Positions 1 through 52,520 of a stretch of DNA of 64,000 nt are shown one piece after another (the first letter of the stretch is position 1; each line of letters begins with the position of its first letter). The notes below the pieces were generated by a model. It was not told the DNA's origin. It saw nothing but the letters and a program-made list of their open reading frames with translations, and made no database searches. Source of the stretch: Halomicrobium urmianum (GTDB lineage Archaea; Halobacteriota; Halobacteria; Halobacteriales; Haloarculaceae); NCBI RefSeq assembly GCF_020217425.1, contig NZ_CP084092.1, positions 310,001 through 374,000 on the forward strand, read 5' to 3'. Made by a program: the position numbers and the translations under genes.

Positions 1-182
1 GCCTCGATCGACGGGTCGTTGGGGAACAGCGTCGCCGGACTGGAGAAGATCTCCGACTCCGGCTTGAACGTGCTCGAGAACATCGTGTAGAAGGGGAACA
101 TCATGATCCCCAGCAGGGCGATCAGGACGCCGTAGATGCGGACTTTCCTGAGTCTGCTCCGCTGCTGGCCGGCCATCGTCAT
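1..182 (-). CDS. Sugar ABC transporter permease, MalG type (partial, N-terminus only)
   Basis: This is the first 60 or so codons of an inner-membrane permease; the rest lies beyond the left edge. The protein begins MTMAGQQRSRLRKVRIYGVL, a basic stretch followed by a hydrophobic first membrane segment, and then reads FSSTFKPESEI, which matches the periplasmic stretch after TM1 in MalG/UgpE-type permeases. The ATG at 182 overlaps the TGA of the preceding permease gene (ATGA), so translation is probably coupled. It should form the second half of the heterodimeric channel with the 312-aa permease. ATG at 176 is an alternative start. Confidence 0.85.
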   Translation of the reverse strand, partial: MTMAGQQRSRLRKVRIYGVLIALLGIMMFPFYTMFSSTFKPESEIFSSPATLFPNDPSIE

Positions 183-1117
183 AGCTCGTCACCTCCGCGA
201 GTGTAGATCCGGAGGTAGATCACGGCGAACGCCATCAGGAACAGGAACCCGATGACGCTGTACGCCGCGCCCCTGCCGAGGTTCCCGTTCTCGAGGCCGA
301 CCTGGTAGATCCAGATCACGAGCGTGGCCGTGGTGTTGATCGGGCCGCCGCCGGTCATCGTCCAGATGACGTCGAAGCTGACGAACGTCCAGATCGTCGA
401 CAGCAGCGTCGCGATCAGGATGACGCTCTTGAGCTGGGGCAGCGTGATGTAGCGGAACTGGTGCCACTTCTCGGCGCCGTCGATGGCGGCGGCCTCGTAC
501 AGCTCCTCGGGAATGGACTGCAACCCAGCGAGGAAGATGATAGCCATGAAGGGCGTCCCGATCCAGACGTCGGCCACCACGACGCCGAGCCAGGCGATGT
601 CGGGACTCCCGAGAATGCCCATTCCCTGATCGATCACGCCGAGTTTCAGGAGGATCGCGTTGAGGTAGCCGTACTGCGGGTGCTCGATCCACCGGAAGAC
701 GACGGCGGAGATCGCGTAGGGGATCCCCCACGGGATGAGGAACGCGGTCCGGAAGAACTTCCGGCCCCGGATGTCGCCCCGGAGGTGAACGGCGATCAAC
801 AGGCCCAGCAGCGTCTTGCCCGCGACGCCGAGCAGAACCCAGCGGCCCGTCTGCCAGAGCAACTGGTAGAAGATGTCGCTGTTGAGGATCTCGACGTAGT
901 GCTGGAACCCGACGTAGGTCTCGATCGCGGCGTCGGCCGGCGAGCGATACAGCGACAGGCGGAACGTCTCGAAGATCGGCCACCCGACGACGCTCAATAG
1001 GAAGATCGCGGCCGGTGCGATCAGCAGGTACGCCAGCCTGTTCTGCCACAGGTAGTGCACGCCCCGTTCGAGGCGCGAGTCGGCCGGCGGCTCGGTGTAC
1101 TCCTCTACGGTACCCAT
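179..1117 (-). CDS. Sugar ABC transporter permease, MalF/UgpA type
   Basis: A 312-aa integral membrane protein of the binding-protein-dependent transport permease family. About six hydrophobic segments are visible, starting at LAYLLIAPAAIFLLSVVG near residues 28-45. The cytoplasmic EAA loop that docks on the ATPase is clear near residues 206-222 (EELYEAAAIDGAEKW). Length is normal for MalF-like permeases without the large periplasmic insert. It starts 3 bases after the binding-protein stop codon and overlaps the next permease by 4 bases, so it belongs to one operon with the ATPase at 3385-4488. The substrate cannot be read from the sequence; a carbohydrate is inferred from family and neighbours. 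Confidence 0.93.
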   Translation of the reverse strand: MGTVEEYTEPPADSRLERGVHYLWQNRLAYLLIAPAAIFLLSVVGWPIFETFRLSLYRSPADAAIETYVGFQHYVEILNSDIFYQLLWQTGRWVLLGVAGKTLLGLLIAVHLRGDIRGRKFFRTAFLIPWGIPYAISAVVFRWIEHPQYGYLNAILLKLGVIDQGMGILGSPDIAWLGVVVADVWIGTPFMAIIFLAGLQSIPEELYEAAAIDGAEKWHQFRYITLPQLKSVILIATLLSTIWTFVSFDVIWTMTGGGPINTTATLVIWIYQVGLENGNLGRGAAYSVIGFLFLMAFAVIYLRIYTRGGDEL

Positions 1118-1120
1118 CTG

Positions 1121-2491
1121 TTACTGCATCATCTCTTCGAGGTCGGCCTGCGCGTCGTCCAGCGCCTGCTGGGGCGACTTCTGGTCGCCCAGGGCCTCCT
1201 GGATCGCCTGGACCATCCGGTTGTTGAACTGGTTGAAGTTCGATAGCTTGGGCCTGGCGCGCGCGTACTGACCGGCCTCGATGAACGGCGCCCAGTTCTT
1301 CGAGTCCTGGAAGTAGTCGCGCTCACCGACCGACTCCACCGTGGGCATGAAGCCCTTGCTGCTGGCGTACTCGAAGTGGCGATCCTCGTCGAAGTAGAAC
1401 CGCAACAGGTCCCTCGCGAGGTCCTCGACCTCGGTCTGGGCGAAGATCGAGATCCCGTCGATCGTGTTCAGACTGTAGCGACCGGCCGGGCCTTCCGGCA
1501 CCTGCACGATCCCGTAGTCGAAGTCCGCGTCGCTCTCCGCGATGTTGATCCCGGTGTACACGTGAGCGATGACCATGCCGAGCGATCCGGACTCGAACAG
1601 CTGCCTGATGTCCTGGCGCGTCGAGGACAGCGGCGACGACTGCGTGACGCCGTGTTCGAGGTGCAGATCGGAGTAGAAGGTCAGCGCCTGGACCCCTTCG
1701 TCGGAGTTGACGACGGGCTGGCCCTCGTCGTCGATCAGGTCGGCGCCGTAGGACCAGTGGTAGTGGTAGTACTGCGATCCGGTCTCGATGGCGTCGGCAC
1801 CTGCGAGGCCCAGTGCGGGCGTGTTGGTCTCTTCGGTGATGGTCTGGGCCGCCGAGAGCATGTCGTCCCAGGTGTCGAGCGACGGGTTCTCCGGATCGAG
1901 GCCCGCCGACTCAAAGACGTCCTTGTTGTAGTAGAAGCACTTGTTCGACGCGGCCCACGGGGCGGCGTAGTACTCGCCCTGGTACATGCACCCCTCCGCC
2001 ATTCCCTCGTAGAACTTCTCCCCGAACTCGCCCTCCATCATATCGGTGACGGGGACGAGGGCCTCCTTGCCGACGAGTTGTGGGATCCAGCGGGCGGGCC
2101 AGCGAGCGACGTCGGGCGCCTCCCCGCCGTCGACGCGGTTGTTGACGGTCTGCTGGGCGTTGTCCCAGGTGACGCTCGTGAACTCGAGGTTGCAGTCGTA
2201 CTCCTCCTCGAAGGCGGCGTTGTTCTCCTCGAAGAACGCCGCGATGTTGTCACCGACGCCCATCGTCAGGAACTGGATGGTCTGCTGGCCGCCGTCGCCG
2301 CCGCTCTCGTTGCCGCCACCGTCTCCACCGTCCCCGCCGTCCCCGCCACCGCCGTCGCCGCCGTCGCCGTCGCCGCCGTCACCGCCCAGACAGCCCGAGA
2401 TAGCGACGACGCCGCCCGCTCCGATCGCTTCGAGCATCCGCCGCCGGTCGATACTCTCCCCTTCGAGGGCTTTTGATGGGTCGTTCGGCAT
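1121..2491 (-). CDS. Extracellular sugar-binding lipoprotein of ABC transporter
   Basis: A 456-aa solute-binding protein, family 1 (MalE/UgpB-like). The N-terminus has a Tat signal (DRRRML at about residues 15-20), a short hydrophobic core and a lipobox ISGC with Cys34, so it is probably a lipid-anchored Tat substrate as is common in haloarchaea. A Gly/Asp-rich low-complexity linker of about 35 residues follows, a tether typical of halophilic binding proteins. The body has family features such as EGEFGEKFYEGM, YAAPWAASNKCFYYN and a C-terminal AIQEALGDQKSPQQALDDAQ. The start at 2491 lies about 25 bases after a TATA box at 2511-2520, consistent with a leaderless transcript. It is followed after 3 bases by the permease. 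Confidence 0.94.
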   Translation of the reverse strand: MPNDPSKALEGESIDRRRMLEAIGAGGVVAISGCLGGDGGDGDGGDGGGGDGGDGGDGGGNESGGDGGQQTIQFLTMGVGDNIAAFFEENNAAFEEEYDCNLEFTSVTWDNAQQTVNNRVDGGEAPDVARWPARWIPQLVGKEALVPVTDMMEGEFGEKFYEGMAEGCMYQGEYYAAPWAASNKCFYYNKDVFESAGLDPENPSLDTWDDMLSAAQTITEETNTPALGLAGADAIETGSQYYHYHWSYGADLIDDEGQPVVNSDEGVQALTFYSDLHLEHGVTQSSPLSSTRQDIRQLFESGSLGMVIAHVYTGINIAESDADFDYGIVQVPEGPAGRYSLNTIDGISIFAQTEVEDLARDLLRFYFDEDRHFEYASSKGFMPTVESVGERDYFQDSKNWAPFIEAGQYARARPKLSNFNQFNNRMVQAIQEALGDQKSPQQALDDAQADLEEMMQ

Positions 2492-2510
2492 ATGCCGTTA
2501 TTGTTCTCCC

Positions 2511-2520
2511 GCCGATATAT
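2511..2520 (-). promoter_or_regulatory. TATA box for the binding-protein gene
   Basis: The minus strand reads TTTATATATC about 20-29 bases before the ATG at 2491. This spacing places the start of transcription at or next to the start codon and suggests the binding protein and permeases have their own promoter inside the operon. Confidence 0.55.
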
Positions 2521-2575
2521 AAACCCACCGGTAATTAAAACTCTATTGTTACATACAGGGGACAGTAGGTGGCGG

Positions 2576-3379
2576 TCAGGCGTTGTGTTCGTGGATCGCC
2601 ACGAGGAGGGCCGCGAGTTCGCTCGTGACGACGTCGTAGATGCTGGCGCCCTTCTCGGCGCTGGCCAGTTCGGGCGAGCCGATGGCGCCGGAGTCGGAGT
2701 ACTGGTCGAACGATCGATAGACGGAGAGCGGTCCCGCGTCGAGGAGATCGCTGCCGCCCCAGTCGTAGTGTTCGTCCCAGACTGTCCCGTCCCGAACGTC
2801 GTCGTCGGCGACCAGGTCCGGCCGGAGGTGCAACATGAGCGACGTCTCGTACTCGCCGCCGTGGGCCATGCCCCCGGTCTCGCTGTCGCGGAGTGACTCG
2901 ATCTCGTCCGTCGCGAGCGTGAAGTAGGTCGTCCCGAGCACCTCGGCGTCCGTCGACGTCCCGACCGTGCTGACGACGGCGTCGATGAGCGCCGCGTTGC
3001 CGCCGTGGCCGTTCACGAAACACACCGCGTCAAACCCGTTCTCGACGCCGGTCAGCGCCACGTCCTCCAGGAGCGCCCGGAGGTGGTCGAACTCCAGCGA
3101 CAGGGTGCCGCCGAACGGGAGGTGATGCGGCGAGAACCCGGTCCAGACCGGCGGCGTCACCAGGACCGGTACGTCCGCGCCGACCTGCTCGGACCCGCCG
3201 TGGACGACGGCGTCGACGAGGATGGTGTCGGTCGCGACGGGGAGGTGGTGGCCGTGCTGTTCGATACTGCCAACCGGGACGACGAGGACGGATCCGTCCT
3301 CCTCGGCGGTGTCCCGGATCGCCGCGTACGGTTTGCCGGCCCACTCGCTGTCGGTCGCTCCGATGGAATCGTATATCAT
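2576..3379 (-). CDS. Creatininase-family amidohydrolase
   Basis: A 267-aa protein of the creatininase/MftE family, metal-dependent hydrolases of cyclic or linear amides. The metal-binding N-terminal motif GSIEQHGHHLPVATDT is near residues 37-52 (Glu40, His42, Asp51) and a second conserved motif FVNGHGGN is near residue 121. Length matches the family (about 240-260). It starts 5 bases after the stop of the ABC ATPase, so it is co-transcribed with a sugar transporter. That placement suggests a role on an amide-bearing sugar or intermediate (for example an N-acyl or lactam compound), but the substrate is not shown by the sequence. Confidence 0.9.
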   Translation of the reverse strand: MIYDSIGATDSEWAGKPYAAIRDTAEEDGSVLVVPVGSIEQHGHHLPVATDTILVDAVVHGGSEQVGADVPVLVTPPVWTGFSPHHLPFGGTLSLEFDHLRALLEDVALTGVENGFDAVCFVNGHGGNAALIDAVVSTVGTSTDAEVLGTTYFTLATDEIESLRDSETGGMAHGGEYETSLMLHLRPDLVADDDVRDGTVWDEHYDWGGSDLLDAGPLSVYRSFDQYSDSGAIGSPELASAEKGASIYDVVTSELAALLVAIHEHNA

Positions 3380-3384
3380 CGCTC

Positions 3385-4488
3385 TCAGGTAGTCGTGACC
3401 GGTTCGGGTTCGTCGCCCAGCGGGACCCGCTCGCCGTCCTCGTCGAAGAAGTGGGCGTCCGCCGGTTCGAAATCGAGGGCGATCGTCTCGCCCGGTTCGG
3501 GGTGAAACTCGCTGTCGACGCGGGCGACGATCTCCCCGTCTCCCCCCGGCCGGTGCAGGTAGAGGAAGTTGTCCGACCCCATCGGCTCGACGACGTCGAC
3601 GACGGTTTCGAAGTGGCCGCCGCCGGTCGCGACAGACAGGTCCTCCGGGCGAACGCCCAGCGTGTACCGGCCGGCGTCCAGCGACACCGGGAGGGCCGTC
3701 TCGAAGCCGTCGCCGGCCAGCTGAACGCCGCCGTCGGTCGGCGTCACGTCGACGTCGAAGAAGTTCATCGACGGCGAGCCGATGAAGCCGGCGACGAACT
3801 CGTTGTTCGGCCGGTCGTAGCAGACTTCGGGTTCGGCCACCTGCTGGAGTTCGCCGTTGTTGAGGATGGCGATCCGATCGCCCATCGTCATCGCCTCGGT
3901 CTGGTCGTGGGTGACGTAGATCGTCGTCACGCCGAGTTCCTCCTGGATGCGCTGGAGTTCCGTCCGCATCTGCGTCCGCAACTTGGCGTCGAGGTTCGAG
4001 AGCGGCTCGTCCATCAGGAAGACCGCCGGATCGCGGACGATCGAGCGGCCGAGCGCCACCCGCTGTTGCTGACCGCCCGAGAGCTGCTTGGGGTACTGGT
4101 CGAGGAGTTCGGGAATCTCGAGAAGCTCCGCGGCCTCGTCGACGCGCCTGTCGATCTCGTCGTCGTCGTACTCGTCCGAGAGCCGCAGCCCGAACGACAT
4201 GTTCTCCCGCACGGTCATGTGCGGGTACAACGCGTAGTTCTGGAACACCATCGCGATGTCGCGGTCCTGGGGACGCACGTCGTTGACGACCTGATCACCG
4301 ATCGCGATCTCGCCCGCGGTGACCGTCTCGAGCCCGGCGATCATCCGCAGCGTCGTCGACTTCCCGCAGCCGGAGGGACCGACCATGACGAGAAATTCCC
4401 CGTCCCGGACGGTGAGATCCACCTCCTTGACGGCGAGAAGCTCGTCGTCGTACACCTTGGTTACGTTCGAAAGCCGTACCTGGCTCAT
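3385..4488 (-). CDS. Sugar ABC transporter ATP-binding protein (UgpC/MsmK/MalK type)
   Basis: A 367-aa ATPase of the CUT1 carbohydrate importers. Walker A is GPSGCGKST at residues 37-45, the Q-loop is in MVFQNYALYPHMTV, the signature is LSGGQQQRVALGR, Walker B is AVFLMDEPLSNLDAKL, and the switch His is in TIYVTHDQTEAM. The C-terminal third is a TOBE/OB regulatory domain (LGVRPEDL), so the protein is full length. It is the first gene of the minus-strand operon and probably energises the permeases at 1-1117. A T-rich element lies about 30 bases before the ATG. Confidence 0.95.
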   Translation of the reverse strand: MSQVRLSNVTKVYDDELLAVKEVDLTVRDGEFLVMVGPSGCGKSTTLRMIAGLETVTAGEIAIGDQVVNDVRPQDRDIAMVFQNYALYPHMTVRENMSFGLRLSDEYDDDEIDRRVDEAAELLEIPELLDQYPKQLSGGQQQRVALGRSIVRDPAVFLMDEPLSNLDAKLRTQMRTELQRIQEELGVTTIYVTHDQTEAMTMGDRIAILNNGELQQVAEPEVCYDRPNNEFVAGFIGSPSMNFFDVDVTPTDGGVQLAGDGFETALPVSLDAGRYTLGVRPEDLSVATGGGHFETVVDVVEPMGSDNFLYLHRPGGDGEIVARVDSEFHPEPGETIALDFEPADAHFFDEDGERVPLGDEPEPVTTT

Positions 4489-5435: not shown

Positions 5436-6212
5436 ATGGGGAAGAACGGGCAACCGCGACGCATCAAATCCGTCGACCGAACGCTCGACATTGTGGAGGC
5501 ACTGCGGGACAACGACTCGATGACGGTGACCGAGCTCGCGGAGACGGTCGACCTCTCCCCAGGGACGGTCCACACGTACCTGGCAACGCTCGAAGATCGG
5601 GGCTACGTCTGCTCCGAGAGCGGGGTGTACCGACTCGGCCTGTTCCTGCTCCCGATGGGCGAGTACATCCGGGCGAGCTCCGACCTCTACAAAGCCGCGA
5701 AGTCCGTCGTCGACGAGCTGGCAGACGAGACCGGTGAGGCCATCCACCTCGTCGTCGAGAGCAACTGGTACGAGATCCAGCTCTACGAGCAGTTCGGCTC
5801 CGACGCGGTCGGCGAGGAGCTCTACATCCAGAACAAGGGGGTTCCGAAGCGGAACCTCCACTGTTCGGCCGCCGGTAAGGCGATCCTCGCGCACCTCGAC
5901 GAGGAGCGCCGCGAGGAGATACTCGCGAACTGCGAGTTCGCAGAGCGGACGCCGGCGACGATCACCGACGCGGAGGCGCTCCGCGAGGAACTGCGGTCCA
6001 TCCGGGACCGGGGTATCGCCTTCAACGACGAGGAACAGATCCAGGGCCTGCGAGCCGTCGGAGCGCCGATTACGACCGAAGGCACGATCCAGGGCGGTAT
6101 CAGCCTCTCGGCGCCAGTCAGCCGCCTCGAAGGCGAGCGGTTCCGATCGACGTTCCCCGATCACGCACGGCAGGCCGCGAACATCGTCGAGGTGAATCTG
6201 CAGGCGACGTGA
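5436..6212 (+). CDS. IclR-family transcriptional regulator
   Basis: A 258-aa regulator. The N-terminal winged helix (residues 8-70, with DSMTVTELAETVDLSPGTVHTYLATLEDRGYV) is followed by the IclR effector-binding domain (LHCSAAGKAILAHL, IAFNDEEQIQGLRAVGAPI, and a C-terminal AANIVEVNL). The start at 5436 is chosen because a TATA box sits 24-33 bases upstream and because conserved sequence begins at KSVDRTLDIVEALR. It is divergent from the sugar ABC operon and upstream of the exported glycosidases, so it is the likely local regulator of both. The ligand is unknown. Confidence 0.92.
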   Translation: MGKNGQPRRIKSVDRTLDIVEALRDNDSMTVTELAETVDLSPGTVHTYLATLEDRGYVCSESGVYRLGLFLLPMGEYIRASSDLYKAAKSVVDELADETGEAIHLVVESNWYEIQLYEQFGSDAVGEELYIQNKGVPKRNLHCSAAGKAILAHLDEERREEILANCEFAERTPATITDAEALREELRSIRDRGIAFNDEEQIQGLRAVGAPITTEGTIQGGISLSAPVSRLEGERFRSTFPDHARQAANIVEVNLQAT

Positions 6213-6539: not shown

Positions 6540-7949
6540 ATGCAGAGACGCAAGTACCTAGAGAGTATGGCCGGTGCTATGGGAGTAGTTACCGTCTCAC
6601 ACACCGGAAGCGCCCGACAACGAGGGAACGGAAACAACGGAAAGGGACAGGGCCCGCCGGACGAGACGCCCCCGCGGAAAGGCGAATCCGTCATCGGACT
6701 CACCGACCAGATCGACACGGTCGACGTGGGAATCATCGGCCTCGGCAATCGCGGGTCGTCGATGACCCAGCTCATCGACGCGATGGCCAACGAGGACAAG
6801 GGGCGGATACAGGCGATCTGTGACCTCCGGGAGGAGCCGGTCGCAGAGACGGAGACCTGGATCGAGGAGGAGGGAACGAACGAGGTACCCGACACGTATA
6901 CGGGGTCGAAAGACGCCTGGATGGACCTGGTAGAACGCGACGACCTCGATCTGGTGTTCGTCTTCACGCACCATCGCGCACACGCGCCCATGGCGAAGTA
7001 CGCTATGGAGCAGGGCAAGCACGTGGCCGTCGAGGTCCCGATGGCGACGACGATCGAGGAGTGCTGGTCGCTGGTAGACACCGCCGAACGGACCCAGAAG
7101 CAGTGTATGATGCTGGAGAACGTCAACTACTTCGACACGGAGATGTGGGTCCTCAACATGATCCACGAGGGCGTGTTCGGAGATCAGCTGAACTACGCCT
7201 CGGGCGGGTACATCCACAACCTCGTCGCGGAGTACTTCTTCCAGGCGTACTGGAACGACTGGCGCTCGAAGAACCACCGGGAGTTCAAGGGCGACCTGTA
7301 CCCGACCCACGGGCTGGGTCCGCTCGCCTTCTACATGGGGATCAACCGCGGCGACCGACTGGAGTACATCTCGAGTCAGGAGAGCCCCGAGAGCAGGCTC
7401 ACCCAGCGCGCCCAGGAACTCCCCGAGGACCACTGGGCCCACGGCGTCGACGACTGGGCCAACGGCGACACGACGCGGTCGGAGATTCTGACGAACGAGG
7501 GGCGGCAGATCCACCTCCAGTTCGACGTCAAGACCAACCGCGCCTACAGCCGGAAGAACGAGCTCGCGGGATCTGACGCCTACCACGAGGGGTTCCCGAG
7601 CGAGCTGGCCGTCGACAGCGAGGGCCACGGGTTCGTCGACGACGAGACCTACGACCAGTACTACGAGGAGTACCGCCACCCGCTGTGGCAACAGATGGAA
7701 GACATCGCCGAGGAGTACGGCGGTCACGGCGGCGGCGACTTCCTGGAGATCTACCGCCTGTTCGACGCGTTCAACCAGGGGCGCCCGCTCGACATGGACG
7801 TCTACGACGGCGCCGCCTGGAGCGCCGTCAGGCCCCTGTCGCGGATCTCGATCGAACACGACGGCGCACCCGTCAAGTTCCCCGACTTCACCCGCGGCGA
7901 GTGGAAGGAGGAACGGGAACTGCAGGTGATGGACTTCGACACGATCTAG
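6540..7949 (+). CDS. GH109-like Gfo/Idh/MocA protein (N-acetylgalactosaminidase family), Tat-exported
   Basis: A 469-aa protein. A Tat-type leader (QRRKYLESMAGAMGVV) is followed by a Rossmann nucleotide-binding fold (VGIIGLGNRGSS, near residues 62-73). Instead of the usual EKP motif of sugar dehydrogenases it has VEVPMATTIEECWSLVDTAE, then MMLENVNY, GGYIHNL and LYPTHGLGP with NRGDRLEY. This set of motifs is what I associate with family GH109, NAD-dependent glycosidases that release alpha-linked N-acetylgalactosamine. Export by Tat fits a protein that must fold around NAD before secretion. It is followed by GH20 and GH123-like genes, which supports an aminosugar-glycan role. A generic exported sugar oxidoreductase is the alternative. 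Confidence 0.8.
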   Translation: MQRRKYLESMAGAMGVVTVSHTGSARQRGNGNNGKGQGPPDETPPRKGESVIGLTDQIDTVDVGIIGLGNRGSSMTQLIDAMANEDKGRIQAICDLREEPVAETETWIEEEGTNEVPDTYTGSKDAWMDLVERDDLDLVFVFTHHRAHAPMAKYAMEQGKHVAVEVPMATTIEECWSLVDTAERTQKQCMMLENVNYFDTEMWVLNMIHEGVFGDQLNYASGGYIHNLVAEYFFQAYWNDWRSKNHREFKGDLYPTHGLGPLAFYMGINRGDRLEYISSQESPESRLTQRAQELPEDHWAHGVDDWANGDTTRSEILTNEGRQIHLQFDVKTNRAYSRKNELAGSDAYHEGFPSELAVDSEGHGFVDDETYDQYYEEYRHPLWQQMEDIAEEYGGHGGGDFLEIYRLFDAFNQGRPLDMDVYDGAAWSAVRPLSRISIEHDGAPVKFPDFTRGEWKEERELQVMDFDTI

Positions 7950-8064
7950 GCGACCATCTGTGCTCGCAGTTTCCGAGGGAAGGACAGCGGGGGCTGGATG
8001 ATAGCCCCCCAGTCGCGTCCGACGTCACCCGGCCACGAAGTGACGATTTATATTATAATACCAT

Positions 8065-8074
8065 CAATATTTTT
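8065..8074 (+). promoter_or_regulatory. TATA box for GH20 gene
   Basis: CAATATTTTT lies 28-37 bases before ATG 8102. The same sequence, inverted, precedes the GH2 gene at 48920-48929. The GH20 gene therefore appears to have its own promoter. Confidence 0.45.
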
Positions 8075-8101
8075 GTGTACTGGATCTGAATAAGTAACAG
8101 T

Positions 8102-9700
8102 ATGGTAGACAGTAGCGCGATCGAGAGACGCAACGTCCTGCGAGCTATCGGTGGCGTCGGTGCCCTCACGATCGGCACGGGTACCGTGTCCGCGGGGGGA
8201 TCGAGCGGAAACGATTCCACGCGCGTTGCCGATCTCGTGCCCGCACCGGTCGAAGCCAGGTCGACTGGGTCCGGTTACACGATAACGGACGAAACGGCGA
8301 TTCACGCCGGCGACCAAGCGGCGACCGGCGTCGCGGAGTACCTAGCCGAGTTCCTGCGCACGCCGACGGGATACGACCTCCCGATCGTTACGGAGCCGCC
8401 TCGAGGGCCAGGCGGTCGCATCTCGCTGCTGCTCGACGGCGCGACCGACGAGGTCGGGAACCAGGGCTATCGCCTGCAAGTCAACCCGAGCGGTGTGAAG
8501 ATACGAGCCAACGCGCCGGCAGGGCTGTTCGCCGGCGTCCAGACGCTCCGTCAGCTCCTGCCGGCGCAGGTCGAGGCCGACGCGGAGCAGTCCGCCGACT
8601 GGACCGTCCCCGGCGTGCAGATCCGGGACTACCCTCGGTTCGAGTACCGGGGTGCCCACCTCGACGTCTCGCGCCACTTCTTCGACGTCAAAACGGTGAA
8701 GCAGTACATCGACTACCTCGCCCAGTACAAGGTCAACCACCTCCACCTGCACCTCACCGACGACCAGGGCTGGCGCATCGAGATCGACAGCTGGCCGAAC
8801 CTCACCGACGAGGGCGCTGACTCGGAGGTGGGCGGCGGTCCCGGTGGGTACTACACGAAAGAGGAGTACACCGAACTCGTCGAGTACGCTCAGGACCGCT
8901 TCATCACGGTCGTCCCGGAGATCGACATGCCCGGCCACACCGGAGCGGCGCTCGAGTCCTACGCCGAACTCAACTGTGACGGTGAGAAGCGAGAGGAGGA
9001 CACCGGCACGAACGTCGGCGACACCTCCCTGTGTATCGACAAGGAAATCACCTACGAGTTCGTCGACGACGTCGTCCGCGAGGTCGCGGAGCTGACCCCC
9101 GGTCCGTACATCCACATCGGCGGCGACGAGGCACACTCCATCAGCGACGAGGAGTACAACTACTTCATGGATCGCGCCGTGTCGATCGTCCAGAAACACG
9201 GCAAGCGTCCCATGGGCTGGCACCAGATCCTCGGTCCCGACCCGCCGACGGAGACGGTCGCGCAGTACTGGTACCCCGGACGGGAAGCGCCCGAAGTGGT
9301 CGAAGCCGCTCAGGAGGGCCACGAGATCATCACCTCGCCGGCCAGCCGCGCCTACCTCGACATGAAGTACGACGAAGACACCGAGCTCGGACTAGACTGG
9401 GCCGGGCTGACTCCAGTCAAGGAGGCCTACGACTGGGATCCGGGTAGTTTCATCGAGGATGTCGACGAATCGTCCATCATGGGCCCCGAAACGGCACTGT
9501 GGGCGGAGACGCTGGAGACGCTCGAGGACATCGAGTTCATGCTGTTCCCGCGATTTCCGGCCGTCGCCGAGCTGGGCTGGTCGCCCGATTCGAGGACCGA
9601 CGACTGGGACGAGTTCAAAGGCCGGCTCGCCGCACAGAGCGTCCGCTGGGACGTGCAGGACGTCAACTTCTACGAGTCCCCGCAGGTCCCCTGGCCATAA
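8102..9700 (+). CDS. GH20 beta-N-acetylhexosaminidase, Tat-exported
   Basis: A 532-aa secreted hydrolase removing terminal beta-linked GlcNAc or GalNAc by substrate-assisted catalysis. It has a Tat leader (ERRNVLRAIGGVGALTIG), an N-terminal GH20b-like domain (DLVPAPVEARSTGSGYTI), then the TIM barrel: FEYRGAHLDVSRHFF, HLHLTDDQGWRIEID, and VVPEIDMPGHTGA. The catalytic Asp-Glu pair is in IHIGGDEAH (Asp342, Glu343). The barrel closes with MGPETALWAETLE. Length is normal for a single-domain secreted GH20. It sits between GH109-like and GH123-like genes, all three with Tat leaders and separate AT-rich promoters. Confidence 0.95.
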   Translation: MVDSSAIERRNVLRAIGGVGALTIGTGTVSAGGSSGNDSTRVADLVPAPVEARSTGSGYTITDETAIHAGDQAATGVAEYLAEFLRTPTGYDLPIVTEPPRGPGGRISLLLDGATDEVGNQGYRLQVNPSGVKIRANAPAGLFAGVQTLRQLLPAQVEADAEQSADWTVPGVQIRDYPRFEYRGAHLDVSRHFFDVKTVKQYIDYLAQYKVNHLHLHLTDDQGWRIEIDSWPNLTDEGADSEVGGGPGGYYTKEEYTELVEYAQDRFITVVPEIDMPGHTGAALESYAELNCDGEKREEDTGTNVGDTSLCIDKEITYEFVDDVVREVAELTPGPYIHIGGDEAHSISDEEYNYFMDRAVSIVQKHGKRPMGWHQILGPDPPTETVAQYWYPGREAPEVVEAAQEGHEIITSPASRAYLDMKYDEDTELGLDWAGLTPVKEAYDWDPGSFIEDVDESSIMGPETALWAETLETLEDIEFMLFPRFPAVAELGWSPDSRTDDWDEFKGRLAAQSVRWDVQDVNFYESPQVPWP

Positions 9701-9884
9701 CGAGAGCTCGGGGGTGAGGGCACAGTCCCGATCAGGAGAGCGATCACGTCGGAACCGCCTCCCTGCATTTCTCTCGGTCCGAACGACGTACTTGGCCCTT
9801 CGACGATCGGAACGGACGATCCGGCTCGTTCGATACCTGTAATCTATGGAGAAGTATTAAGTCATTTCGTGACAGTTAACTAAT

Positions 9885-11840
9885 ATGGTGAACGACACCA
9901 CTAGTGATGGCACTGGAGAGGAGAGTGCGCCGACCAGGCGGCGATTCATACAGGGCCTCGGTGCCGCCGGGGTGGCGAGTGGGACGTTGACGGCCCGAGT
10001 CGGCGGCCAGAGTCACGGTCGGTCACCACACCAGAATGCGAACGGCGGCGGGAACGGAGCACCCAGATCCGCCGACGCGGATACCTATACGTCCGAGTGG
10101 CTACAGTTCCTCGTCGAGAAAGCGATGCCCCGGGATGGACTCAACGCCTGGATACCGACAGACTCCTTCGACACCTCCTCGTTCGCACGGGTCGAGCGAT
10201 TCCCACAGGAGTTCGGCGACGTCACTCGACGCGACCTCTCGCTGTTCTCAGCCCGGAACGAACAGGTATCGGGACAGATAGCCGTTCTAAGTGACGAACC
10301 CATCTCCGAGCTATCCTGTTCGGTCACCGACCTCAGATCCGAGAGCGGCGGTCGGATCGCAGCGGAGAACGTCGAGGTTCGATACGTCGGATACGTGCCC
10401 GTCGAGAACGCACACAGCGAGTTTACCTGGTCGGCGACCTTCGAGGAGGTGACCGGCGACGTGCTGGGTACGCGCAATCCCGATCTCGTTGGCGATCCGT
10501 TACTGGAAGTCGACGGCGTCTCAGTCCCCGAATACGAGGCTCAGCCGATCTGGTTCACTGTCCGCGTCCCGGACGACGCCACGGCAGGCACGTACGGGGG
10601 CTCGATCACGGTCGAGGCAGGCGATCAGGAGACGATAGAATACGACGTCGAACTCGACGTCTACGACGTCGCGGTTCCCGATCCGGCGGACTACGAGTTC
10701 TATCTGGACATCTGGATGAACGCGAACGCGGTCGCGGCCGGACACTCGGTGAATCCGCAGGCCAACGACGTCAAGCCCTGGTCCAAGCGACACTGGGAGT
10801 TGATCGAGACGTACATGCGCGATATGGCCGAGCGAGGCCAGAAATCGATCACGACGACGATCATCCACGAACCCTGGCAGCGGGAATGGCTGGGCGGCGA
10901 GTGGCGTCCGCAGACGGAGATCGGCTACGATAGCATGGTCGAGTGGCAGTACGACGGCGAATCGTGGTCGTTCGACTTCTCGATATTCGATCGATTCGTC
11001 GAGACCGGCCTCGCACAGGGGATGGGACCGGACATCGCTGCGTACTCGATGCTGGCGTTCCGCGGGGAGCAGCGGATTACCTACGTCGACGAACGCGAGG
11101 GCGAACGGGTCGTCTGGCGCGGGCAGGCCGGGGAACCGTTCTGGCGGGAGTCCTGGACCGCCTTCCTCGAGTCCTTCCAGCGACACCTCGAAGAGAAGGG
11201 GTGGCTCGAACAGACGTACATCGCCTTCGACGAGCGGCCAGCGGAGTTGATGGCGGAGGTCGTCGACCTCCTCGAAGAGGTCGCACCGGTGTTCGTCGAT
11301 CGGCTTCACATCGCCGGGTCGATGGAAGTCGAAGACGTCGCGCACAACCTGTCACCTCACTACGGCGAACTGCCGATCGATCAGGACGTCGTCGACAGAC
11401 GGCGAGAGAACGGAAAGACGACCACCTTCTACACCGCCGGCGGACAGTCCCACCCCAACACCTTCGCGTTCTCACCGCCCGCAGAGTCCAGAATGCTTCC
11501 CTGGATCTCCGCCCTGAACAACCTGGACGGATACCTCCGGTGGGCGTACAACAGCTGGCCCCGCGACGTGTACGAGAATCCCGTCTTCCGGTACGTCCAG
11601 GGCGACGAGTACTTCGTGTACCCCGGTGAGGACGGTCCGGTCTCCAGCCTCGCCTGGGAGCAACTGACCGAGGGGATCGAGGACTACGAACTCGTTCACC
11701 GGCTTCGGGAGCAGTCGGACGGAGACTCCCCGGAGCTCCGGGAGGCACTCCAGCTCGCTACGCGAGACCGCGACGCTCGCGAGAAGGACCTTCGAGATAT
11801 CGTCCGAGCCAAGCAGATCGTACTCGAGGCGCTCGCGTAG
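9885..11840 (+). CDS. GH123-like exported glycosidase (DUF4091-type C-terminus)
   Basis: A 651-aa protein with a Tat leader (TRRRFIQGLGAAGVASG). The first 250 residues are beta-rich and resemble an accessory domain (PIWFTVRVPDDATAGTYGGSITV). The central part is a barrel-like region, and an Asp-Glu pair in TYIAFDERP (Asp449, Glu450) sits where GH123 enzymes carry the catalytic residues. The C-terminus (RYVQGDEYFVYPG, then LTEGIEDYELVHRLRE) is the signature I know as DUF4091. GH123 enzymes are beta-N-acetylgalactosaminidases; that assignment here is inference supported by the GH109 and GH20 neighbours. A TATA-like GTATTAAGT lies about 25-30 bases before the ATG. Confidence 0.78.
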   Translation: MVNDTTSDGTGEESAPTRRRFIQGLGAAGVASGTLTARVGGQSHGRSPHQNANGGGNGAPRSADADTYTSEWLQFLVEKAMPRDGLNAWIPTDSFDTSSFARVERFPQEFGDVTRRDLSLFSARNEQVSGQIAVLSDEPISELSCSVTDLRSESGGRIAAENVEVRYVGYVPVENAHSEFTWSATFEEVTGDVLGTRNPDLVGDPLLEVDGVSVPEYEAQPIWFTVRVPDDATAGTYGGSITVEAGDQETIEYDVELDVYDVAVPDPADYEFYLDIWMNANAVAAGHSVNPQANDVKPWSKRHWELIETYMRDMAERGQKSITTTIIHEPWQREWLGGEWRPQTEIGYDSMVEWQYDGESWSFDFSIFDRFVETGLAQGMGPDIAAYSMLAFRGEQRITYVDEREGERVVWRGQAGEPFWRESWTAFLESFQRHLEEKGWLEQTYIAFDERPAELMAEVVDLLEEVAPVFVDRLHIAGSMEVEDVAHNLSPHYGELPIDQDVVDRRRENGKTTTFYTAGGQSHPNTFAFSPPAESRMLPWISALNNLDGYLRWAYNSWPRDVYENPVFRYVQGDEYFVYPGEDGPVSSLAWEQLTEGIEDYELVHRLREQSDGDSPELREALQLATRDRDAREKDLRDIVRAKQIVLEALA

Positions 11841-11957: not shown

Positions 11958-13019
11958 TTACAGTTCGACCCGTCGGCCGGTTTCGCTCGATTCGTACACG
12001 GCGTCCGCGACCCGGACGTCCGTGAGCCCGTGTCTCCCGTCCGGTTCGATGGCCATGTCCGTTCGCACGGCCGTTGCGAAGTAATCGAACTCCTCGCGGA
12101 CCTCGTGGGGCTCGTTCGCTTCGAACGTGACCGTGCTGCCCCCGGCCGTCACGGTGATCTGACGGTCGTCGTGGACGCCGAACACCGGTTCGACGACGAT
12201 GCGACCCTCCGTCCCGGTGACGGCGAACCGACTCGCGCCCGCAGCGTTGAAGCTCGCGGTACACGAGGCGGTGACCGCGTCGGGGAACTCGAGCTGGACG
12301 GCAACGTGCTCGTCGACGCCCTCGAACGGCGGCTCGACGGAGTGGGCCGTCGCGCGCACTGCGACCGGGTCCGCTCCGAGGACGAAACGAGCGGTGTTCA
12401 TCGGATACACGCCGATGTCCATGAGAGCGCCGCCGCCGGCCAGCTCCCGGTCGATCCGCCACTGATCCGGGTCGCCGTGGGCGAGTAACCGGAACGAAAA
12501 CTCGCCGTGTACCTGGACCGGTGACCCGATGACGCCGTCGTCGATCTGCCGGCGAATCCACCTGATGGAACGCGCAGTCTGCATCCGATACGCGGCCATC
12601 AGCGGGACGCCCGCGTCTTCGCAGGTCTCCACGAGCCCCTCGGCCCGTCCTGCGGTCGATTCCAGCGGCTTCTCGCAGAGGACGGCTTTCCCGAACTCCG
12701 CCGCCGTCGCCACGTGTCGACGGTGGAGCGCGTTCGGCGTGACGACGTAGACGGCGTCGTAGTCGTCGCGTCCGGTGCCGTCGGCGAACTCGTCGTACGT
12801 GAGCGCCCAGTCGGCGTCGAACGCGTCGGAGACCCGCGCCGCTTTCTCGGCCGAACCGCTCACCACCGCCGTCGTCGTGCAGTAGTCCGATCGCTCGATC
12901 GCAGGCAGCGCCGTGTTCCGGGCAAACCCGCCGAGCCCGACGACTGCGAACCGCAGCGGCGCGTGTTCGACGGGCCGGTCCCAGTCGCGTTCCAACCGCG
13001 TCGGGATATCGAGGCGCAT
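11958..13019 (-). CDS. Gfo/Idh/MocA oxidoreductase, D-xylose 1-dehydrogenase-like
   Basis: A 353-aa NAD(P)-dependent oxidoreductase. The Rossmann motif is FAVVGLGGFARN (residues 27-38) and the catalytic-lysine motif is LCEKPLE; GGGALMDIGVYPMN marks the C-terminal substrate domain with its conserved Asp. The opening (LRFAVVGLGGFARNTALPAIERSDY) resembles the haloarchaeal D-xylose 1-dehydrogenase family, so oxidation of a pentose or related sugar to a lactone is plausible. No Tat leader, so cytoplasmic. It is convergent with the GH123-like gene and divergent from the aldo/keto reductase gene. Confidence 0.82.
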   Translation of the reverse strand: MRLDIPTRLERDWDRPVEHAPLRFAVVGLGGFARNTALPAIERSDYCTTTAVVSGSAEKAARVSDAFDADWALTYDEFADGTGRDDYDAVYVVTPNALHRRHVATAAEFGKAVLCEKPLESTAGRAEGLVETCEDAGVPLMAAYRMQTARSIRWIRRQIDDGVIGSPVQVHGEFSFRLLAHGDPDQWRIDRELAGGGALMDIGVYPMNTARFVLGADPVAVRATAHSVEPPFEGVDEHVAVQLEFPDAVTASCTASFNAAGASRFAVTGTEGRIVVEPVFGVHDDRQITVTAGGSTVTFEANEPHEVREEFDYFATAVRTDMAIEPDGRHGLTDVRVADAVYESSETGRRVEL

Positions 13020-13212
13020 GCGCCCAGAATATCGGTTCTAGAACTTAGTTCCGGGGGCTGGCTCACGCCGACGGAGTCGGGACGGCGGTGAGTCGCGTCA
13101 GTCGCCGGGCTGTCCCCGACTCGGCCCCGGGGTTCTGAAGTCCGAGCGGCAGTCGCCGGCCGAGGGCCGACGGCACGGAAGCCCTTTAGCTGCGACTGCC
13201 GTCGACTGACGT

Positions 13213-14016
13213 GTGAACGGCTTCGAGAACGCGGCGATCGGTTTCGGAACGGGGGGTCTCGACGAACAGGACGGCGCCGAAGCGGTCCGCAGGGCGCTCG
13301 ACGTCGGCTACCGGCACGTCGACACTGCCCAGAACTACGGCACCGAAGCCGACGTCGGTGCGGGGCTCGAACGATCGGACGTCCCCAGAGAGGACGTCTT
13401 CCTGGCGACGAAGGTCGACAGGTCCAGCCTGGCGTACGACGACGTCGTCGAGAGCACCGAGCGGAGCCTCGAACGGCTCGGTGTCGATTCCATCGACCTG
13501 CTGTACGTCCACTGGCCGCTCGACACGTACGACCCGGAGGAGACGCTCGCGGCGTTCGACGGACTGTACGACGACGGCACGATCGGGAACGTCGGCCTGA
13601 GCAACTTCGAGCCCGACCAGCTCGACGAAGCGCGGGCGGTCCTCGACGCGCCGATATTCGCCCATCAGTTCGAGTGCCACCCGCTGTTGCCCCGGGAGGA
13701 ACTGCGCACGTATGCGGACCAGCACGACCAACTCGCCGTCGCGTACTGCCCGCTCGGTCGCGGCGTCCTACTCGATCAGGACGTCCCCGAACTCGAGTCC
13801 GTGGCAGAGAAACACGGTGCCACGGCGGCACAGGTGACGCTGGCCTGGCACGTCGCGAAGGGGATCGTCCCCATCCCGAAGGCGTCGGGCGACCACATCG
13901 ACGACAACTGGGCGGCGACCGACCTCCGACTCGACGAGGAGGACGTCCGGACGATCGACGGAATCGAGCGCCGCGAGCGGATCGTCGACGTTCCCGAAGC
14001 ACCGTGGAACCGCTGA
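13213..14016 (+). CDS. Aldo/keto reductase
   Basis: A 267-aa NAD(P)H-dependent reductase with the complete catalytic tetrad: Asp in RHVDTAQNYG, Tyr in the same motif, Lys in LATKVD and His in YVHWPLD. The C-terminal cofactor motif IPKASG is present. It starts with GTG at 13213; no better upstream start is open. Probably acts on a sugar aldehyde or ketone given the neighbourhood, but family members are promiscuous and the substrate is not shown. Confidence 0.9.
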   Translation: MNGFENAAIGFGTGGLDEQDGAEAVRRALDVGYRHVDTAQNYGTEADVGAGLERSDVPREDVFLATKVDRSSLAYDDVVESTERSLERLGVDSIDLLYVHWPLDTYDPEETLAAFDGLYDDGTIGNVGLSNFEPDQLDEARAVLDAPIFAHQFECHPLLPREELRTYADQHDQLAVAYCPLGRGVLLDQDVPELESVAEKHGATAAQVTLAWHVAKGIVPIPKASGDHIDDNWAATDLRLDEEDVRTIDGIERRERIVDVPEAPWNR

Positions 14017-14070
14017 GCGCTCCGGCATCGAATTCTGAGCTGTCCAGCTGTGCGTCAGTCGAGCACCACC

Positions 14071-14078
14071 ATTTATGC
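14071..14078 (+). promoter_or_regulatory. TATA box deciding the start of the enolase-superfamily gene
   Basis: ATTTATGC lies 23-30 bases before ATG 14101, so the longer reading frame from 14050 is not used. Confidence 0.5.
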
Positions 14079-14100
14079 TAGTCGATGCAGACCTCTGCCC

Positions 14101-15267
14101 ATGGTAACCGACGCCACGATCACGGACGTACAGACCTGCGTCGTGGAGGGTAACTTCGACTGGACCTTCGTCCGCGTGTACACGGATGCGGGGATGACCG
14201 GTACGGGCGAGGCCATCCTGGGCGAACGCTCGGCGGACATCGCGTCCGACGCCGCGCCGATCCTCGAAGGCGAGGACCCGCTCGACGTGTCGCGGCTCAC
14301 CGAGACCCTGTACCGTCGGCTCTCGTACACCGGCGGGAAAGCGGGAGCGGTGACGTCCGCGATCTCCGGCCTGGAGATAGCGCTGTTCGACCTCGCGGGC
14401 AAACTGCTCGAGGTTCCCACGCACCAGCTCCTCGGCGGCAAATTCCGCGAGGACGTCCGCGTGTACTGTGACACCCACGCCGGCGCGCACCTCGGACGGA
14501 GTGAAGACGAAGCGGCGTTCACCCCGGAGTCGTACGCGGCCGCCGCGGAGGACGTCGTCGCAGACGGCTTCGACGCGATGAAGTTCAATCTTGACGCGAA
14601 CCAGCAGTTCGAGAAAGACGAGTGGAACCGGCATCTCGCCCCGCGTAATATCCAGAACAAGGCGGAGATCGTCGAGGCCGTGATCGACCGCGTCGGTGAC
14701 AGGGCGGACGTCGCGTTCGACTGCCACTGGGAGTACGGTACGGACAGCGCGATCCGACTCGCGAGCGCGCTCGAGGAGCACGACGTCTGGTTCCTCGAGG
14801 ACCCGGCGCCGCCCGAGAACGCCGCCGTCCCGGAGGCGATAACGAACGCGACGGAGACGCCGATCTGCACGGGCGAGAGCCTCTATCGCGCGGAGGGGTT
14901 CGTCGACCTCGTCACCAGACAGGGGGCGGACGTCGTCCAGCCGGATCCACCGAAGTGCGGCGGTCTGCGAGAGACGCGGCGGATCGCCGAACTCGCGGAG
15001 CTGTACGAGATCCCGCTCACCTTGCACAACGTCGCGTCGCCGCTCGGCACGGTCGCGTGTGCACACGTCGCCGCCGCCTGCTCGAACTTCCTCGCCCTGG
15101 AGTACCACGCTCGCGACGTCGAGTGGTGGGGCGACCTCGTCGGAGAGAACCCGATCGACGACGGGTCCATCCCCGTCCCCGACGCGCCCGGGCTCGGCGT
15201 CGAGCTCGATCCCGACGTCGTCTCCGACCACCTCTCTGCCGGCGAGACGCTGTTCGATCCCGTCTAG
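14101..15267 (+). CDS. Mandelate racemase/muconate lactonizing family sugar-acid dehydratase
   Basis: A 388-aa enolase-superfamily enzyme. The N-terminal capping domain is followed by the barrel with metal ligands in FDCHWEYG (Asp), FLEDPAPPEN (Glu) and CTGESLYR (Glu). KFNLDAN carries a Lys-x-Asn segment and a conserved LHNVASPLG lies near the end. These fit the galactonate/gluconate-type dehydratases (DgoD, RspA and relatives), which remove water from aldonic acids to give 2-keto-3-deoxy sugar acids. It would act downstream of the adjacent sugar dehydrogenase. The specific acid is not determined. Confidence 0.87.
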   Translation: MVTDATITDVQTCVVEGNFDWTFVRVYTDAGMTGTGEAILGERSADIASDAAPILEGEDPLDVSRLTETLYRRLSYTGGKAGAVTSAISGLEIALFDLAGKLLEVPTHQLLGGKFREDVRVYCDTHAGAHLGRSEDEAAFTPESYAAAAEDVVADGFDAMKFNLDANQQFEKDEWNRHLAPRNIQNKAEIVEAVIDRVGDRADVAFDCHWEYGTDSAIRLASALEEHDVWFLEDPAPPENAAVPEAITNATETPICTGESLYRAEGFVDLVTRQGADVVQPDPPKCGGLRETRRIAELAELYEIPLTLHNVASPLGTVACAHVAAACSNFLALEYHARDVEWWGDLVGENPIDDGSIPVPDAPGLGVELDPDVVSDHLSAGETLFDPV

Positions 15268-15324
15268 TGGGTCCAGTGACCGTCGCAGGCTCGGTTCCGC
15301 CACCGTTGCGCGGCCGTCCGTCGG

Positions 15325-16011
15325 CTAGAGCGTCCCGTAGCGGTCCCACACCTCGTAGACGCTGTCCCCGTCCCGGATGTCAGCGCGCACGTTGTTCTCC
15401 GTTTCCAATTCTTCTTCGCCTTCCTCGATGACCTGATCGAGGACGGACGGTTCGATGACGACGATGGACTCGTAGTCGGCGAACACGACGTCCCCGGGCT
15501 CTATCGTCACGCCGTCGATCTGCACGGGCACGTCGTACTCCGCGAACGCCACGCGGCCGAAGGACTCGATCGCGCTGTGGCCCTCGGCCCAGACGGGGAA
15601 CTCGTGTTCCTCGATCAGCCGCGAGTCCCGCGTCGGTCCGTCGATCAACGCGCCTTCCGCGCCGTTCTCCTGAACGATGGTACTCAGCAACTCGCCCCAG
15701 AGACCGACCCGCGTCCCGGTCGGTGCGGCCATGACGACGAAGTCTCCGGGATCCGTGTCTTCTAGGTACTCGAAGAACTCGATCTCCTCGTCCTCGCCCT
15801 CGTCGTCCTCCTTCTCGTACCCGATCTCCACTCGCTGGGCCGGGTGCGCGGTACCGATCACCGGATCGCGGGACCACAGCGCTTCGAGTCGCGTGCAGGG
15901 AATGACGTTGTTGCGAATCCCCATCTCGTCTGTGATGTCGTTGATCAGCGCACTGTGGAGGTTCGACAGGCGCTCGCGTTGGTCGGCAGTAATTGCCATC
16001 GTGATGTCCAT
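15325..16011 (-). CDS. RraA-family protein (HMG/CHA aldolase or demethylmenaquinone methyltransferase-like)
   Basis: A 228-aa protein of the RraA/HMG-aldolase family. The core GALIDGPTRDSR near residues 126-137 is the family signature, with the Arg and Asp that bind pyruvate and metal in the aldolase members. An extra acidic insert (EKEDDEGEDEEIEFFEYLED) is unusual and probably a halophilic loop. The family includes oxaloacetate decarboxylases and 4-hydroxy-4-methyl-2-oxoglutarate aldolases, and sugar-acid cluster members of uncertain function. It is convergent with the dehydratase gene. The start at 16011 has a TATA box (GATATAAATG inverted, 16029-16038) 18-27 bases upstream. Confidence 0.85.
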   Translation of the reverse strand: MDITMAITADQRERLSNLHSALINDITDEMGIRNNVIPCTRLEALWSRDPVIGTAHPAQRVEIGYEKEDDEGEDEEIEFFEYLEDTDPGDFVVMAAPTGTRVGLWGELLSTIVQENGAEGALIDGPTRDSRLIEEHEFPVWAEGHSAIESFGRVAFAEYDVPVQIDGVTIEPGDVVFADYESIVVIEPSVLDQVIEEGEEELETENNVRADIRDGDSVYEVWDRYGTL

Positions 16012-44717: not shown

Positions 44718-44787
44718 GCTCACTCACCAGGGTTCGTCCCGTTCTCTGGATTGTGCGCAGTCAACAGCCTAGCCTCTAAGGGATACC

Positions 44788-44815
44788 GTTACATACACAA
44801 ATACAGTTACATACA
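44788..44815. promoter_or_regulatory. Direct repeats GTTACATACA near the MFS promoter
   Basis: Copies at 44788-44797 and 44806-44815, 18 bases apart. A TATA box (ATTATAAATAT inverted, 44819-44829) lies just upstream in the direction of the gene, so the repeats overlap the expected start of transcription and look like an operator. A third copy lies at 2548-2557, upstream of the TATA box of the sugar-binding-protein gene. Confidence 0.5.
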
Positions 44816-44884
44816 ACCATTATAAATATCTTTCCAAAGTGCGAGGCGTAGACACGCCCGCCGGACGTCGATTCTGCCGCGCGA

Positions 44885-45745: not shown

Positions 45746-45887
45746 TCGTACTGGAATGCGTCCGAGGGCGTGAAAAAGAACGCGAACCTGGCTACTGCGA
45801 CCGGCCGCCGACGTCGCTGGACGGCCTCGATCCGTGACAGGCCCCCGACGAGTGCCGTGTCGGTTCCGCGGACGGCGGAGAGGATAA

Positions 45888-45895
45888 TGTATATA
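45888..45895 (+). promoter_or_regulatory. TATA box deciding the start of mannonate dehydratase
   Basis: TGTATATA lies 25-32 bases before ATG 45920, so the transcript is probably leaderless and longer upstream frames are unused. Confidence 0.55.
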
Positions 45896-45919
45896 CGAGT
45901 TGGTGTTCTGGGTCTTCGT

Positions 45920-46879: not shown

Positions 46880-46948
46880 GCGTTCTACCGACCGACGCGG
46901 CGCAGTCCGTTTCTTTCGACGCCGGTGTCACAGGGCGTAGCCGTGCGG

Positions 46949-47034
46949 CTATAGTAGCAATTGAAACTATGTACACATCGAGGGGCACCCCGAGTGCCCC
47001 TCGAGTGTGTCACTGCGGTCAATTGCTACTATAG
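46949..47034. repeat. MITE-like short inverted-repeat element, intact copy
   Basis: 86 bp with perfect 16-bp terminal repeats CTATAGTAGCAATTGA and TCAATTGCTACTATAG. The interior forms a strong hairpin (CGAGGGGCACCCCGAGTGCC then CCTCG). It lies between the convergent uxuA and GH2 genes, so it might also act at transcript ends. A degenerate relative is at 4879-4962. Confidence 0.68.
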
Positions 47035-47104
47035 TCGGGAATCGGAGAAAACCGGACGAGACAGGCCAGGAAGGGGTTCGTCCGGGAACGGAAGACGCCG
47101 GGCG

Positions 47105-52518: not shown

Positions 52519-52520
52519 GA

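Follow-up and report, generated by a model that had tools for sequence, protein, structure and literature searches.

What would a haloarchaeon do with three exported glycosidases directed at N-acetylhexosamine (HexNAc) glycans? The question is raised by a locus of Halomicrobium urmianum in a 64,000-nucleotide stretch of contig C3 (NZ_CP084092.1, C3:310001-374000, here called the window; the contig measures 399,575 bp and the genome 4.25 Mb). A first reading of the letters (the original prediction) had drawn three glycoside hydrolase (GH) genes on the plus strand at 6540-11840, and their coordinates, strand and reading frames proved exact. The locus very probably serves the utilisation of HexNAc glycans, in particular those with N-acetylgalactosamine (GalNAc). 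The sugar transporter noted beside the glycosidases belongs to a catabolic operon, of which it forms one end; the rest extends leftwards beyond the window. Exported hexosaminidases, import and a non-phosphorylative oxidative route for HexNAc form the reading that we prefer, with a probability of about 0.6. The glycosidase genes are as follows.

6540..7949, + strand: GH109 N-acetylgalactosaminidase with twin-arginine translocation (Tat) leader, 469 aa (assigned by Pfam, PDB matches and residues)
8102..9700, + strand: GH20 beta-N-acetylhexosaminidase with Tat leader, 532 aa (Pfam, PDB match, residues)
9885..11840, + strand: GH123 beta-N-acetylgalactosaminidase with Tat leader, 651 aa (Pfam, PDB matches, residues)

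Three glycosidases of HexNAc-specific families

By their matches to curated hidden Markov models and to solved structures, the three proteins are new members of known families, and the identities first proposed for them held; the first gene fell within GH109 and the third within GH123, with catalytic residues intact. The GH109 protein scored 106 bits with Glyco_hydro_109_C (cut-off 27) and 63 bits with GFO_IDH_MocA (cut-off 24) of Pfam, 286 bits over 410 residues with AmGH109A (6t2b) and 175 bits with EmNagA (2ixa). Residues E193, Y224, H257, Y336 and H396 (GGHGG loop) are conserved, and Y224, H257 and H396 align with Tyr226, His259 and His404 of AmGH109A, an enzyme described as having a catalytic His in the GGHGG loop, a C2-proton Tyr and an acid/base His (PMC10755693). 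So far, the GH109 enzymes that have been assayed proved to be N-acetylgalactosaminidases (PMC12269599). The GH20 protein matched Glyco_hydro_20 (302 bits) and Glyco_hydro_20b (89 bits) of Pfam and the beta-N-acetylhexosaminidase 1hp4 (558 bits), and its catalytic pair D342-E343 (HIGGDE) is intact. The same is true of the pair D449-E450 (FDERP) in the GH123 protein, which matched GH123_cat (280 bits), Glyco_hydro_123_N_2 (68 bits) and one further model (33 bits) over the cut-off, as well as the structures 5l7v (260 bits) and 5fqe (159 bits). The predicted substrates are alpha- or beta-GalNAc for GH109 (with bound NAD+), beta-HexNAc for GH20 and beta-GalNAc for GH123.

All three proteins begin with a twin-arginine motif (RRKYL, RRNVL and RRRFI) and, behind it, a hydrophobic stretch; the motif is kept in their orthologues, which bears out the Tat leader proposed for each gene; the TIGR01409 cut-off was passed by the GH123 protein only (19.5 versus 16.7 bits). 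Tat exports folded, cofactor-loaded proteins, so that export of an NAD+-binding GH109 enzyme by this system makes sense. An AT-rich segment does lie upstream of each gene, as had been noted, and its role as a promoter is putative. Compared with the solved enzymes 6t2b, 2ixa, 1hp4, 5l7v and 5fqe, the three proteins share family, full-length domains and catalytic residues, but they are archaeal, carry a twin-arginine leader, are acidic and halophilic, and are encoded together in a single locus that also holds a catabolic module.

The locus is indeed unusual for a haloarchaeon: GH109_C was found in 8 of 391 genomes of the class, GH20 in 19 and GH123_cat in 2. The non-archaeal relatives found in a plasmid collection came mainly from Streptomyces (GH20 44% and GH123 47% identical) and Bacteroidota, and gain of the glycosidases by transfer is therefore likely, as far as these similarities tell. 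A contig scan with the GH123 protein as query returned no match; a query built from the alignment of X380, a protein of the adjoining module, did find copies. Nine GH109 matches were seen in G046 (loci L002-L010, L053, L054), a haloarchaeal draft genome of another family (78% complete); one of these proteins is 58% identical to that of the window and adjoins a sulfatase-like gene, as judged by eye.

A probable catabolic module beside the glycosidases

An IclR regulator and a sugar ABC transporter had been reported next to the glycosidases, and both are there. The corresponding features, with the part of the operon beyond the left edge contained in segment L051 (C3:296001-312000), are listed below.

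1..182, - strand: ABC sugar permease 2, 5' end (281 aa; C3:309340-310182, L051 13340-14182; continues outside the window)
179..1117, - strand: ABC sugar permease 1 (312 aa)
1121..2491, - strand: ABC substrate-binding protein (Pfam SBP_bac_1, 143 bits)
2576..3379, - strand: creatininase-family amidohydrolase (Pfam Creatininase, 212 bits), in the transporter operon
3385..4488, - strand: ABC transporter ATPase of UgpC type (orthologues 72-79% identical)
5436..6212, + strand: IclR-family regulator (IclR_C, 108 bits, and HTH_IclR)

The transporter (1-4488, - strand) is a CUT1-type sugar importer. Its binding protein has a twin-arginine leader with a lipobox-like SGC, read from the sequence, and the counterpart of its ATPase in Haloferax mediterranei is annotated ugpC. 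Orthologues of permease 1 are 72-87% identical and keep their order in Haloferax, Haloarcula and others; the place of permease 2 after permease 1 is likewise conserved in other genomes. IclR genes stand next to the module, or next to the GH genes, in two further genomes (G388, G317) and in Natribaculum as well, and the IclR protein encoded here is the probable controller of the locus. No operator common to the regulator's targets is claimed from the upstream regions, which were inspected by eye only.

The whole module comprises IclR, the ATPase, the creatininase-family hydrolase, the binding protein, two permeases, X380, a mandelate racemase (MR)-type enzyme, a short-chain dehydrogenase/reductase (SDR) and usually RidA. 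The minus-strand order in H. urmianum is ATPase, creatininase-family gene, binding protein, permease 1, permease 2, X380, MR-type enzyme, an enzyme of the dihydrodipicolinate synthase (DHDPS) family and SDR, and an FmdA-like acetamidase gene lies on the opposite strand between the last two. An open reading frame (ORF) of 430 codons at L051:10770-12062 was considered as a gene and discarded, being antisense to the MR-type enzyme.

The module recurs with and without the glycosidases

The same gene set, usually ending in RidA and 65-91% identical, was found without glycosidases in Haloferax and Haloarcula, where the creatininase-family gene again stands between those for the ATPase and the binding protein. 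Further copies without glycosidases, varying in order and identity, occur in Halarchaeum, Halorubrum amylolyticum and Haloparvum, and the MR-type gene lies on plasmids of Haloarcula hispanica and H. marismortui. Other copies are accompanied by GH109 and GH123 (G388), by GH109 and GH20 (G233, G354 and G403) or by GH109 alone (G317), and a Natribaculum longum plasmid has the module with the full GH109-GH20-GH123 trio in the same order. The glycosidase-bearing copies come from several haloarchaeal families. Together, the juxtaposition of an import and catabolism module with these glycosidases in six haloarchaeal genomes and the Natribaculum plasmid supports the suggestion of a dedicated amino-sugar locus, as far as gene content can tell.

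An orthologue of the MR-type enzyme was present in 63 of 381 genomes of the class. It was found in all seven GH109 genomes (Fisher p = 2.5e-6) and in 12 of the 18 GH20 genomes (p = 1.3e-6), in genome samples for GH109, GH20 and MR-type enzyme that overlap and are not identical; the counts omit G403, which has the MR-type gene (L048) and was apparently absent from the second draw. RidA belongs to the cassette in five related genomes; in H. urmianum it is represented by unlinked copies, 73% and 69% identical. Sulfatase genes in Haloprofundus, a GH3 gene in Halosolutus and CBM9 in some copies are further neighbours of the module.

A proposed oxidative route for HexNAc

The module's glycosidases come from HexNAc-specific families and point to an amino sugar route; the presence of RidA in most copies points to chemistry on the amino sugar nitrogen. 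In the route that we propose, the exported GH109, GH20 and GH123 enzymes would trim GalNAc, and N-acetylglucosamine (GlcNAc) as well, off external glycans, and the ABC importer would bring in the sugar itself or else a short oligosaccharide, which X380, with its glycosidase-like fold, may cleave after import. The SDR would then oxidise HexNAc at C1 to the lactone or aldonate, and the MR-type enzyme would remove the C3 hydroxyl from this alpha-acetamido-beta-hydroxy acid, giving an enamide (a 2-acetamido-2-ene acid). Acetate would be released by the creatininase-family enzyme and possibly, in H. urmianum, also by the FmdA-like acetamidase. The resulting enamine or imine, which belongs to the RidA substrate class, would be converted by RidA to ammonia and 2-keto-3-deoxy-galactonate or -gluconate (KDGal or KDG). 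Cleavage of this product may fall to the DHDPS-family aldolase encoded in the operon here, or to a KDG/KDGal kinase followed by 2-keto-3-deoxy-6-phosphogluconate (KDPG) aldolase, whose genes adjoin the module in Haloferax mediterranei. Such a route would need no HexNAc kinase, NagA or NagB, and neither NagA (TIGR00221) nor NagB (TIGR00502) was matched in the H. urmianum genome. For the exact order of these reactions the odds are even at best. The families of GH109 and GH123 favour GalNAc, and the substrate may be GalNAc, GlcNAc or both; chitin was weighed as well, and no match to GH18 was found in the genome.

The ends of the route are suggested by gene neighbourhoods. In H. mediterranei the module precedes eda (KDPG aldolase) and kdgK1 (KDG/KDGal kinase), with gdhB lying slightly farther away, and the product is therefore probably KDG or KDGal plus ammonia. 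In H. urmianum the DHDPS-family gene is inside the module and KDG kinase homologues are present in the genome. The ABC genes give way to a gluconate:H+ symporter in Halostagnicola larsenii, where SDR and X380 are gone and the MR-type, creatininase-family and RidA genes are kept. This arrangement is to be expected on the proposed route, because the SDR would make the acid on which the other three would act. In Haladaptatus pallidirubidus the symporter version includes a distant SDR and has no RidA next to it, so that the loss of the SDR along with the appearance of the symporter is a tendency.

Features of the individual enzymes are compatible with these roles to differing degrees. In the MR-type enzyme K183-T-K185, D213, E241, E267, D290 and H317 are invariant among six orthologues, a set that corresponds to the KxK motif, three metal ligands and a His-Asp dyad, whose D and H align with those of 2oqh and 4dye; from this motif we take the enzyme to belong to the mandelate-racemase subgroup of the enolase superfamily. 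The creatininase-family motifs EQH, D, NGHGGN and HGGEYETS align with the metal site of a solved creatininase, which makes hydrolysis of an amide or lactone plausible; we propose an N-deacetylase, with a lactonase as the alternative. X380 is a cytosolic protein of 379 aa in H. urmianum, with no sequence match in the PDB and only a sub-threshold one to GHL10 in Pfam. Its AlphaFold2 model (pLDDT 76, pTM 0.81) looks like a TIM barrel, and the best Foldseek matches were GH42-type beta-galactosidases, PgaB and Cwp19, followed by weaker ones to GH20 and galactosaminidase entries. As the TM-scores were only about 0.4-0.6, and in view of the sub-threshold Pfam match and the lack of a PDB match, no family is claimed for it. 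Within the module, the roles of the SDR and X380 are the least certain.

Several points weigh against this oxidative route. The specificities of the SDR and the MR-type enzyme cannot be read from sequence, and the nearest solved relatives of the latter are 'putative isomerases'. Lactam and C-C hydrolases are members of the creatininase family too, which leaves the deacetylase role a guess. RidA lies outside the cassette in H. urmianum, and its part there is assigned by proxy for that reason. One gene for a PIG-L-type deacetylase is present on another contig, the enrichment p-values were computed ignoring the relatedness of the genomes, and a kinase route, SIS-domain deaminases or some further route are alternatives to the one proposed. 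A broader proposal, that haloarchaea possess their own non-phosphorylative HexNAc pathway of SDR, MR-type, creatininase-family and RidA proteins and that X380 stands for a new family of cytosolic TIM-barrel glycosidases, is tentative and falls somewhat short of an even chance.

Alternative explanations

The alternative that survives best keeps locus and substrate and places deacetylation first, by the creatininase-family or the PIG-L enzyme, after which the SDR or a glucose dehydrogenase (GDH) would form a hexosaminate, to be dehydrated and deaminated to KDG or KDGal. It resembles the scheme given in PMC12343721 for the chitin-eating Natrarchaeobius (CE14, then GDH, then an ammonia-lyase step), whose clusters also hold IclR, GAD, GDH and RutC, a relative of RidA. 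H. urmianum does have a PIG-L gene, but it is unlinked to the locus. Moreover, the symporter clusters keep the creatininase-family gene and lose the SDR, suggesting that the former works on the acid or at a later step. We consider this order of events unlikely, though worth keeping in view.

Less probable still is that the module serves another substrate, such as an N-acyl amino acid, an inositol or an acid derived from a uronate, and that the hexosaminidase genes only happen to adjoin it. Neither the Haloferax nor the Haloarcula copies are flanked by a matching glycosidase, Rhizobium homologues of X380 adjoin iolC and iolD, and the substrates of the creatininase family are varied (NCBIfam includes IolN). 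On the other side stand the recurrence of GH109, GH20 and GH123 beside the module on seven replicons in several families and the strong enrichment of the module among GH109/GH20 genomes. It is more doubtful again that the exported glycosidases remodel or recycle surface glycans, the cell's own S-layer or those of competitors, instead of feeding it. The genome is without a GH18 chitinase, and a crude filter of the replicon by Tat leader and sulfatase motif brought up neither an obvious exported polysaccharide lyase or sulfatase nor a candidate glycosaminoglycan depolymerase, so that no clear polymer-degrading partner is seen; this idea is opposed by the close linkage to importer, regulator and catabolic enzymes and by a patchy distribution of the kind typical for accessory utilisation loci. 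Finally, the shared Gfo/Idh/MocA fold of GH109 and weak matches to other dehydrogenases could point to an ordinary oxidoreductase as product of the first gene, which is very improbable given a Glyco_hydro_109_C score far over the cut-off, the full-length match to GH109 structures, the conserved GGHGG loop and Tyr/His set, and a Tat leader that fits an exported enzyme loaded with cofactor.

Comparison with known amino sugar systems

Taken together, the genes of the locus would represent a variant of oxidative amino sugar catabolism, a kind already known. With the bacterial ong oxidative chitin pathway of Pseudoalteromonas prydzensis it would share the logic of a non-phosphorylated N-acetylaldonate, with deacetylation and deamination to KDG, and in both a GH20 enzyme stands at the entrance; the ong pathway also has an essential RidA-family protein, OngD, whose role there is unexplained (PMC9537276), to be compared with the RidA of most module copies and the unlinked ones of H. 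urmianum. The ong pathway uses an acid made by a lytic polysaccharide monooxygenase, the D-aminoacylase-type deacetylase OngB and the D-amino-acid-deaminase-like OngC (PMC9537276), in place of which we find an SDR, an enolase-superfamily enzyme, a creatininase-family hydrolase and an ABC importer; among the genes of the operon there is no protein of OngB or OngC type. The classical Nag pathway differs by its NagA deacetylase and NagB deaminase.

Many Rhizobium plasmids (111 records; L091, L092) carry homologues of X380 (about 33%). In Rhizobium and Aureimonas the homologues adjoin an alanine-racemase-type gene and one for an amidohydrolase; in the one Rhizobium record read RidA, an aspartoacylase-type enzyme, IclR and ABC genes are also near. 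This neighbourhood is reminiscent of the ong pathway and counts among the observations that favour an oxidative route.

The chitinase clusters of Natrarchaeobius are haloarchaeal too and contain IclR, an ABC importer, GDH, GAD and RutC/Rid in a partial, only predicted pathway, but they are GH18-based, directed at GlcNAc and equipped with a CE14 deacetylase; GH123, creatininase-family and X380 proteins are not described in the portion of PMC12343721 available. Strains of Haloarcula and Natronoarchaeum grow on hyaluronate and chondroitin sulfate A and therefore presumably use GlcNAc and GalNAc; their degradation system is one of PL8, GH88 and GH154 lyases, with an amino sugar route assumed to lead to fructose-6-phosphate and no tie to the operon described here (PMC13260240). 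In the literature consulted, the use of GlcNAc and GalNAc by haloarchaea was left open in a genome comparison of 2011 (PMC3102087) and again in 2025 (PMC12343721) and 2026 (PMC13260240). The glycosidases hint at the substrate of an operon often met in laboratory haloarchaea (Haloferax mediterranei, Haloarcula hispanica, Haloarcula marismortui), where its annotation is only generic, and the question is open to single-gene deletion. If the proposal is true, haloarchaea would break down amino sugars without a kinase, RidA would act in catabolism, and salt-tolerant enzymes cleaving alpha- and beta-GalNAc would become available.

Other features of the window

A hexuronate cluster at 43473-55908 comprises genes for a major facilitator superfamily transporter, a UxuA-type mannonate dehydratase, a GH2 enzyme closest to beta-glucuronidase/galacturonidase structures, D-mannonate oxidoreductase, the glucuronate isomerase UxaC, IclR, an aldehyde dehydrogenase and a DHDPS-family protein. 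Its link with the locus is no more than suggestive, glucuronate and HexNAc being the two halves of glycosaminoglycans. The aldehyde dehydrogenase gene (53390-54840) is apparently split, possibly by a frameshift: of the 2,5-dioxovalerate dehydrogenase models only positions 206-483, at the C-terminal side, are matched by its 415-aa ORF, and an ORF at 53390-54034 overlaps it in another frame. Directly after the GH genes, a group at 11958-16011 encodes a Gfo6-type xylose dehydrogenase (434 bits, over the cut-off), an aldo/keto reductase, a RraA-like protein and a galactonate-dehydratase-like enzyme, of which a 53% identical orthologue lies near the G233 cassette. The region 17356-40000 has a lower GC content and contains genes for a UvrD/PD-(D/E)XK helicase-nuclease, a transposase, AbiEi-like and nucleotidyltransferase proteins, DUF6610 and a multi-PAS histidine kinase of 1202 aa; it looks like a mobile or defence island.

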